Positions 40,705 through 42,760 of a stretch of 64,000 nt of DNA are shown piece after piece. The notes under the pieces are model-generated. The model was not told where the DNA came from and did no database searches. It saw only the letters and a program-made list of their open reading frames with translations. A program made the translations under genes and the position numbers. Each line of letters starts with the position of its first letter. Positions within the stretch are counted from its first letter, which is position 1. The stretch spans positions 36,427 through 100,426 of the forward strand of contig CAJNOJ010000344.1 of the NCBI GenBank assembly GCA_905250025.1, given 5' to 3'. Origin of the DNA: Adineta ricciae. Lineage: Eukaryota > Rotifera > Eurotatoria > Adinetida > Adinetidae.

Positions 40705-42760
40705 ATGCTTTCGATCTTACCAGCAGACGACGATGAAAATGAATCGAATATCATTGATTTCTTATACCAGTTATGTAAACGAAATGAAATTGAAGAAGTG
40801 CAAAGAATTTTACCATTTATTGGTAATATTAATTTGATTAATAAACTTCATACAGTCACCGGCTCGACATGTTTACATGTGGCTTGCTATTATGGTCATC
40901 GCGATATGGTCAAGATTCTCCTCGATTACGGCGCGACACATTCAATACCAAATTTACGACATAGTTTAACACCGTATGAAGAAACACATGTCGAGGAAAT
41001 CAAACAATTGTTTCTCGAAAACAAAAATCCGCCGTTCAATAACGATTATAATTTCATTCAATGGTCATTGATCGGTGATGATTTACTCAGTAAACGTCGA
41101 GAATTTCGGAAACTTATCGATGTCTATAAAACCTATGATAACCATCTTCTAGTATCAAAGTTATTAGCAGAAGTCATTCATTACTATTTAAACGAGTATC
41201 TACTTGACGATGCCAGAGATGATACACTTCGAGCACAAATCGAAACGATCGAATCGTATTTCAAAGAAGCGATTGATAAACAAGATTATCTAACTTATTT
41301 TATCAAAGCATACACATTAACCAACATATTCTATCACTTTCTAAACAAAGACTTAGCTTTGTACATCTTGGAATACTTCGATCAAACAAAAACATTTTCA
41401 TCAAATTATCGTCTTGTCAATTGTCTTGTGCATCTCGTTACACTTTTAATCTACCATCCAAATCTACCTCAATATCAATATCGAGGTGTATGTTATCGAG
41501 GAATGCGAATAACAACGAATGATTTAGAACAGTATCAGATCAATCATCATATATTAAACCGAGCTTTTCTCTCAACATCGCTTGACAGACAAGTTGCAGA
41601 AATGTTCGCCGGCGAAGGACAACAATCGCAAATGAGACATACACCGAAAGATCAGCGTGCACTGCTATATTCGTGTGTATGCCAATATGTTATAAAACAA
41701 GATTTAACAGCGATTAATATCGGAAATTTATCGACAAGACCCGATGAAAAAGAAATTTTAATCATTCCATTCAGTGTTTTTAAAGTAACATCCATCAAAC
41801 GAAATTATATCGATAATCCACAAGCAGCAATTTCCATTGAAATCGAATTAGAAGAATGTGAAGATCCGGATAAACTTGATGAGCAATCATCACGTTTGCT
41901 AACAGTTTTATCCTCAGAGAATGATATCAAAGATGCTGAAGCTTATACGAGATTCAAGCGACGGCGAACGTTGCTTTATGGCGCTATTGCAATCTTAACT
42001 GTTCTTGTTCTGATCGCATTGAGTGTTACATTTATTCTAATTTTCGCTATTAAGAAATCCTACCCGAATCACAATTCAACATTACTATTAGAGAAAATCA
42101 ATCGCCTTGAGTATCAATTGCCATTCGGTAATGTACCATTTCATCAATACCTGCGATTCACTTTTTTTCCTGTATAGACTGTCCGAGAATACTGAATCGG
42201 ACTAGTTGGAATGCACGCCCGTATATTACACGTGAGAATCTGACAACTGTACCAGTCACACATATTGTCGTAAGACAATTAGCAGATGTGAAAAACGTTA
42301 TGAGCCAACAGGATTGCATCAAAGCGATTCAAGATCTTCAGGATTTCCAAATAGATATTCGAGGTTGGGCCGACATTGGTTATAATTTTCTTATGTGTAA
42401 CGATAAGAATGATCATTCTGAAATCTACCGGGGTCGAGGATGGATGTTTCGAGGTGCACATTGCATTAGTTACAATTTTCGATCCTTAGGTAAAAACACG
42501 ACCTGAAAATTTCTCTTATTGAATTTATTTATTCAAAAGGTATTGCAATTCTGGGAAATTATACAAGTACGAGTTTCTTGAATGTGTTCAAATCGTTCAT
42601 TCGTTGCGGAATACGAAAGAATATCATTGCGATTAATTTCACACTGGTTGGAGATGCAAATTCTCGAAGTCTCTATAAACACTATTTGAACTACTTAAAA
42701 AACAACACTGATTTTCAGTATAGTAACCAACTGAATAACACACAGATTTATTGTAGCTAA
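40705..42760 (+). CDS. Ankyrin-ADP-ribosyltransferase-TM-PGRP receptor, copy 1
   Basis: Exons 40705-42127, 42178-42489 and 42540-42760 with two 50-bp GT-AG introns, both phase 1, give 651 residues. Residues about 50-90 are ankyrin repeats (GSTCLHVACYYGHRDMVKIL). Residues about 110-375 are an ART domain: CYRGMR (Arg265), FLSTS (290-292), DEKEILIIPF (ExE 348-350). A TM helix at about 423-449 is preceded by FKRRR, so the N-terminus should be cytosolic. From residue 476 a peptidoglycan-recognition domain follows: CPRILNRTSWNARP, DIGYNFLMCND, YRGRGWMFRGAH, SYNFRSLGIAILGNY. The usual zinc ligands appear lost (RQLAD at the HHT site, VGDANS at the GHxD site), so it should bind rather than cut. N-x-S/T sites lie outside. 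Predicted cell-surface bacterial sensor with a catalytic ART output. Confidence 0.85.

Follow-up and report, generated by a model that had tools for sequence, protein, structure and literature searches.

A candidate receptor of bdelloid rotifers that joins an ankyrin–ADP-ribosyltransferase region to a peptidoglycan recognition ectodomain

The cytosolic RHIM-like motif of the Drosophila peptidoglycan recognition protein (PGRP) receptor PGRP-LC serves the IMD pathway. Known single-pass receptors with an enzyme tail rely on kinase, phosphatase or guanylate cyclase domains for signalling, and we know of none with an ADP-ribosyltransferase (ART) tail. Arginine-specific ARTs are marked by the R-S-E rule, the zinc ligands of amidase PGRPs are His, Tyr, His and Cys, and the GH16 recognition proteins of insects are inactive. 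The gene described here lies in a 64,000-nucleotide stretch of the bdelloid rotifer Adineta ricciae (contig CAJNOJ010000344.1, positions 36,427 to 100,426; the window), which is part of contig C344 in the 130-Mb assembly that was searched. Its predicted product combined an ankyrin region, an ART domain, a transmembrane (TM) helix and a PGRP domain. We hold, with somewhat more confidence than doubt, that it is a type II receptor with the PGRP outside and arginine mono-ADP-ribosylation inside, belonging to a bdelloid family with exchangeable ectodomains.

Joining the three exons of the gene (Table 1) gave a protein of 651 residues followed by a stop, and both introns were bounded by GT and AG. 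An earlier note, made from the letters alone, had proposed two 50-bp phase-1 introns in one 651-residue frame, and splicing reproduced this arrangement. Intron 1 contained an in-frame stop, at which unspliced RNA would terminate after the TM helix. The junction of exons 1 and 2 was identical in the NCBI A. ricciae protein P0002. The A. steineri protein P0003 was collinear with the window protein across both junctions, sharing 66 of the 105 residues of exon 2 and 45 of the 73 of exon 3. Between the gene and a second copy in the window, the ratio of nonsynonymous to synonymous divergence (dN/dS) over the whole coding sequence was 0.21 (dS 0.110, dN 0.023). On these three grounds the fusion of exons 1, 2 and 3 is not a chance arrangement, as judged at the sequence level.

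In exon 1, Pfam matched Ank (PF00023) at 31 bits and ART (PF01129) at 29 bits, both above the curated cut-offs. The ART fold held the arginine, serine and ExE motif of the arginine-specific R-S-E clade, and transfer of ADP-ribose to arginine is its predicted activity. Its neighbours in fold searches included bacterial ART effectors and ART2.2. The only strong hydrophobic stretch of the protein (residues 428–446) had a mean Kyte–Doolittle value of 3.07. The C-terminal part belonged to the PGRP family by fold and by sequence; 31 distinct sequences of the Protein Data Bank matched it at E ≤ 0.01, with animal PGRPs on top and a best E of 4.3e-24, and PGRP-LE was among the best fold matches. The ankyrin and R-S-E ART region, the TM helix and the PGRP domain claimed in the earlier note were all recovered in these comparisons; in Pfam, the ankyrin and ART assignments stood and that of Amidase_2 did not. 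A simple pattern scan of the window protein, weak as a pattern-only test, found no RHIM-like core ([IVL]Q[IVLC]G), with one INIG at position 337.

Protein searches at E ≤ 0.001 gave 114 proteins among 7,996 scored candidates, and further searches gave 16 among 86 and 140 among 7,995 (120 of the 140 being listed). The 156 rows examined had an ART region of at least 180 query residues and consisted of 147 database proteins, the two window copies, a paralogue on contig C393 and six A. ricciae outgroup frames. After the ART, a PGRP ectodomain was found in 58 rows, NHL in seven, GH16 in two (one gene) and LRR in one. No ectodomain was recognised in 88 rows, 22 of which had a hydrophobic stretch; many of the 88 stopped at the ART or the TM helix, like unspliced calls, and were scored neither for nor against. 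Of the 58 PGRP rows, 38 had a hydrophobic helix between the ART and the ectodomain, as did four of the seven NHL rows, the GH16 pair and the single LRR row. As the earlier note had suggested, the same fusion was present in other bdelloids: the 38 ART–helix–PGRP rows included A. ricciae, A. steineri, Rotaria sordida, Rotaria sp. Silwood1, Rotaria sp. Silwood2, R. magnacalcarata, R. socialis and Didymodactylos carnosus. Among the rows examined, the fusion was not found in A. vaga, whose clade member P0065 had a different C-terminal part.

This distribution bears on whether two neighbouring genes, or an annotation artefact, were mistaken for one fused protein. The in-frame stop in intron 1 and the different joining of the 3' end in P0002 would suit such an error, which is nevertheless barely credible given the same fusion in eight named bdelloids and the collinear identity through both junctions. 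In addition, P0095, P0149 and P0151, known from metagenome-type sources only, had ART, helix and PGRP in one protein (P0149 with the start of the PGRP only), and their support would be independent of any intron model if, as we assume, genes in such sources are called without splicing.

The ART triad (R, S and the second E of ExE) was kept in 131 of 150 rows, the outgroups being left out. Eleven of the other 19 were gapped at one place (including the NHL row P0152), P0087 had K at the second E and seven were without R. The seven arginine-less PGRP paralogues (P0004, P0022, P0023, P0026, P0028, P0030 and P0027) are possibly pseudo-enzyme receptors. A receptor that binds food bacteria without enzyme output, for scavenging, phagocytosis or adhesion and with the ART only as a scaffold, would agree with the rows lacking the arginine and with the bacterial diet of rotifers given in the available part of PMC9533005. 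The retention of the triad in most rows, and a dN/dS between the copies that was lower in the ART (0.12) than in the ankyrin region (0.43) or the PGRP (0.30), make such a receptor rather unlikely. The ART might instead be no specific signalling enzyme but a cell-suicide or anti-parasite effector that acts as an NADase or by broad ADP-ribosylation upon contact with microbes. The bacterial effectors among its fold neighbours, beside ART2.2, and the large ART family of the genome are consistent with this, while a membrane receptor with ankyrin and many paralogues fits regulated signalling equally and the data do not tell the two apart; we regard an effector of this kind as distinctly unlikely.

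In the PGRP domain of the window protein, the places of the two His ligands were occupied by R and D, and the fourth ligand, Cys, was missing, unlike in a catalytic PGRP. Across the family, 26 of 58 rows had H at the first His place and 22 had R, and the third-ligand place was readable in 30, with H in 17. A Cys stood at the fourth-ligand distance in one of 25 pattern-matched places, and this exception was the first Cys of the following PGRP stretch in P0001. Judged by these residues, the PGRPs of the family should bind their ligand without cutting it.

Hydrophobic helices were called by simple hydropathy rather than by a trained predictor. Of 68 rows, among them P0086, 58 had more lysine and arginine in the 15 residues before the hydrophobic stretch than in the 15 that follow; seven were tied and three were reversed. 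N-x-S/T sequons of the window protein numbered seven after the helix and two before it, and close relatives began at a similarly short N-terminus. Because of the lysine/arginine bias, the sequons, the short N-termini and the lack of an upstream ATG, the ART is placed inside and the PGRP outside in a predicted type II topology. The arrangement of PGRP-LC, one TM helix with a C-terminal extracellular PGRP, was seen as a prediction from the helix and the two biases. The features of an ecto-ART, namely a signal peptide or glycosylphosphatidylinositol (GPI) anchor and an extracellular ART, were not seen: the N-terminus (MLSILPADDDENES) was read directly, the C-terminus was the PGRP and the ART lay on the predicted cytosolic side. 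The opposite orientation would have an extracellular ART as in vertebrate ecto-ARTs and, like PGRP-LE, a PGRP that detects fragments inside the cell, in the cytosol. It could draw on the open and hydrophobic frame just 5' of the ATG and on PGRP-LE as a fold match, yet this upstream stretch contained no ATG, the ankyrin region was N-terminal, and the homologous N-termini, the charge bias and the sequons of the window protein, with a modest excess family-wide, all pointed the other way, so that we consider the reversed orientation very improbable.

In the favoured type II receptor, the C-terminal PGRP would lie outside the cell, or in a lumen that faces food bacteria, and would bind peptidoglycan or its fragments without cutting them. 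The ligand, a polymeric wall polymer, would cluster or rearrange the receptor, and the cytosolic N-terminal mono-ART would then modify arginines of nearby cytosolic targets. The short ankyrin region probably recruits a substrate or partner for the ART. Topology, ligand, enzyme activity, activation by clustering, signalling and an immune role are here what we infer from the computed features.

The nearest paralogue of the ankyrin–ART part, with 41% identity, was the gene on contig C393. Across seven GT-AG introns, its single frame ran on into a TM exon and a GH16 domain, and the NCBI A. ricciae protein P0116 corresponded to its product from residue 40 on. Pfam gave GH16 at 37.3 bits and ART at 18.7 bits, below the cut-off of 22.3, and listed no ankyrin family. 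The closest solved structure of the GH16 domain was the bacterial laminarinase 3iln (E 1.2e-65). The active-site motif GEIDxMEx read GNIDLMLH, a form without either catalytic Glu. A pattern located the motif in 29 of the GH16 proteins returned, of which C393 alone lacked both Glu and the other 28 kept both; in A. vaga P0119, which has two GH16 stretches, the first did not match the pattern. The predicted model of P0116 was weak (mean predicted local distance difference test, pLDDT, 58.6), and its fold search agreed with the sequence search without being independent proof. The Pfam GH16 search of the genome missed C393, in which this domain is split over short exons. A phase-1 intron separated TM helix and ectodomain in C393 and also in the window gene. 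Two unrelated kinds of ectodomain without hydrolytic residues, together with an ART triad kept in most rows, are what receptors would show.

The ankyrin–ART–TM part was a chassis with exchangeable PGRP, NHL, LRR and inactive GH16 ectodomains. In a quick tree of 154 rows (the 156 less P0116 and P0001), group A (86 rows; Shimodaira–Hasegawa-like approximate likelihood-ratio test, SH-aLRT, 98) contained PGRP, NHL and LRR, group B (60 rows; 97) contained PGRP, NHL and GH16, and at least seven ectodomain changes were counted among rows with a recognised ectodomain. A careful tree was built from 62 rows, that is, the 68 with a recognised ectodomain less 11 named fragments or near-duplicates plus five others. 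Both groups were recovered (94/91 and 99/98) with seven changes, of which four, for NHL, were forced by well-supported branches. A single NHL clade was rejected by the approximately unbiased test (p 3.2e-199), with the group not chosen blind and long branches in play. Group A had two NHL proteins with a TM helix, P0062 and P0063, and group B had another two, P0113 and P0152; by their ART parts the A. steineri proteins P0062 (NHL) and P0097 (LRR) were sisters (100/99). Three of the seven NHL rows were without a TM helix. The NHL search of the genome scored 150 matches among 2,777 candidates; the repeats were so frequent that this result says little, and spliced NHL models therefore need caution, as they could be chimeric; P0113 and P0152 (ENA only) were the safer cases. 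Placements within group B were unsure owing to the long branches of P0113, P0152, P0095, P0149 and P0151. The careful tree contained two outgroup frames, which did not cluster. For the wider proposal belief and doubt are evenly poised: bdelloid enzyme-linked pattern-recognition receptors with mono-ADP-ribosylation output would use this chassis with repeatedly exchanged PGRP (for bacteria), inactive GH16 (for glucan), NHL and LRR ectodomains, in part perhaps by way of the phase-1 intron at the border of TM helix and ectodomain.

Several observations weigh against this interpretation. The exon structure of the window gene is a prediction from genomic sequence. P0002 was without exon 3 and continued into a downstream metallo-beta-lactamase-like gene; the database copy of the PGRP domain is thus cut short, and exon 3 of the window gene is supported by frame, splice sites and homology. 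The dN/dS of exon 3 was 0.83 (three synonymous and ten nonsynonymous changes), which reflects weak constraint or too few changes to tell. Amidase_2 scored 19.7 bits on the spliced window protein, below its curated cut-off of 26, which was passed by some relatives, e.g. P0084 (55.3 bits) and P0095 (36.7 bits). A hydrophobic helix was absent from 19 of the 58 PGRP rows, and the sole one of P0086 lay inside the PGRP; the helix-less rows are either gene-model errors or soluble forms. The family-wide excess of sequons was modest (1.86 per 100 residues on the ectodomain side against 1.21), and the frame remained open 5' of the ATG. Residues at the zinc and ligand places of the PGRP varied among members. 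The ART arginine was lost in seven PGRP-bearing rows, six from Rotaria and one from Didymodactylos (the latter also with S to P), and P0087 lost the second Glu, so that some members cannot use an ADP-ribosylation output.

The second copy also gave 651 residues after splicing, with the splice sites and phases of the first, and all four introns were 50 bp, GT-AG and phase 1. Ungapped intron identity between the copies was 36/50 and 46/50. The copy-2 protein was 100% identical to P0002 over 281 ART columns, and the source contig of P0002 (15,219 bases) was near the length of each of the two blocks that hold the copies. These blocks started and ended within about 90 bases of homologous points. According to PMC5916493, synonymous divergence (KS) between homologous copies in A. 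ricciae is 0.14 ± 0.036 and their median divergence is 4.55%; its authors note that errors of scaffolding may account for some of the breaks in collinearity at scaffold gaps. Since the block ends nearly coincide, single Ns join the blocks and the divergence (dS 0.110) is allele-like, the two copies are most likely alleles that scaffolding placed in tandem; a tandem paralogue is less likely on the same grounds. The earlier note was right that a second diverged copy keeps the splice sites and frame, and its status as a paralogue probably falls. Single Ns at window positions 9594, 20574, 28054, 43424 and 58817 separated homologous blocks (e.g. 14485–20573 and 20575–26661, 96.9% identical), from which much of the scaffold looks like haplotype contigs placed in tandem.

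Table 1. Positions of the features of the window gene, its second copy and the C393 paralogue
Feature	Position	Strand	Remarks
Exon 1	40705..42127	+	Ankyrin region, ART domain, TM helix and stalk; residues 1–474, codon 475 split by intron 1
Intron 1	42128..42177	+	50 bp, GT-AG, phase 1; separates the TM stalk from the PGRP domain
Exon 2	42178..42489	+	First part of PGRP ectodomain; dN/dS between copies 0.14
Intron 2	42490..42539	+	50 bp, GT-AG, phase 1
Exon 3	42540..42760	+	Rest of PGRP ectodomain and stop
Ankyrin region	40759..40947	+	Residues 19–81
ART domain	41308..41805	+	Residues 202–367; R265 / S290 / E348-x-E350
TM helix	41986..42042	+	Residues 428–446; hydropathy 3.07; helix 414–459 in A. 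steineri model
Copy 2, exon 1	56012..57434	+	Probable allele
Copy 2, exon 2	57485..57796	+	Same splice sites as copy 1
Copy 2, exon 3 and stop	57847..58067	+	Same splice sites as copy 1
Contig block with copy 1	28055..43423		Flanked by single Ns at 28054 and 43424
Homologous contig block with copy 2	43425..58816		Flanked by single Ns at 43424 and 58817; four long collinear pieces 86–95% identical to first block
C393 Ank-ART-TM-GH16 gene	G000:C393:65500-73500 (L034)		One 699-residue frame

Searched genome-wide, the PGRP part matched the two window copies and a weak, separate PGRP on contig C46 (L013, G000:C46:253577-256750). The latter was short, with an apparent signal peptide by eye, and probably represents an additional, conventional secreted PGRP of A. 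ricciae. The Pfam Amidase_2 search of the genome gave 12 places, the window gene not among them. In Rotaria, P0004, P0019 and P0001 had two PGRP stretches after the ART, and P0001 also repeated part of the ART, which suggests multivalent ectodomains or model errors. The ART family was very large in A. ricciae, with at least 150 domain matches scored of 553 candidates. Further ART genes of the window, linked to ankyrin and TPR, lay at 49–1224, 31205–33877 and 46581–49163 (the last by likeness to the second). Twenty ankyrin–ART loci chosen from 101 matches were scanned with PGRP, NHL, LRR and GH16 references, and beyond C393 no ectodomain match among them worked out as one frame. NHL at L036 (opposite strand) and L051 (about 4.5 kb downstream) and GH16 at L047 (about 5.5 kb downstream) were taken as separate genes.

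No description of the ankyrin–ART–TM–PGRP architecture was found in the literature searched, mostly at listing level, and to this extent the receptor type is as unfamiliar as the earlier note had held. No paper pairing bdelloids with an ADP-ribosyltransferase was found there either. In the available parts of the papers, protein ADP-ribosylation was among the gene categories enriched in expression data of A. vaga, with no receptor mentioned (PMC10809525, PMC12220480), a survey of rotifer secretory lectins excluded TM-containing proteins by design (PMC8878817), and a 2022 review described the pattern-recognition pathways of microbe-eating animals such as rotifers as uninvestigated and noted Toll-like receptor orthologues (PMC9533005). 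The same parts held one rotifer mention, of another domain (PMC3482391), one A. vaga mention, of PARG (PMC4245714), and the use of published RNA-seq for A. ricciae gene prediction (PMC7943196). The ankyrin–ART–TM receptors look like an undescribed kind of immune receptor. Were this so, both the output and the mix-and-match ectodomains of this bdelloid immune receptor family would be without a known parallel elsewhere, and part of the large A. ricciae ART family would gain a function. Each part of the receptor could be expressed and assayed.

Among the known systems closest to the window protein, PGRP-LC is a transmembrane PGRP receptor, as the window protein is predicted to be. However, the cytosolic part of PGRP-LC is an adaptor-binding RHIM-like tail, whereas the window protein has ankyrin and ART in this place. 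Of the eukaryotic arginine mono-ADP-ribosyltransferases (ART2.2/ARTC, PF01129), the vertebrate members are secreted or GPI-anchored outside the cell, while the ART of the window protein is predicted to be cytosolic and is fused to a TM helix and a PGRP. Secreted PGRPs (PGRP-SA, amphioxus PGRP3 and others) shared the same domain with E values of 4e-24 to 1e-14; the PGRP of the window protein differs in that it is predicted to be membrane-bound with an enzyme tail. The C393 protein resembled the beta-1,3-glucan recognition proteins of insects in its GH16 fold with both catalytic Glu replaced, but differed from them in that its closest solved structures were bacterial laminarinases and its GH16 domain sits on the ART–TM chassis.
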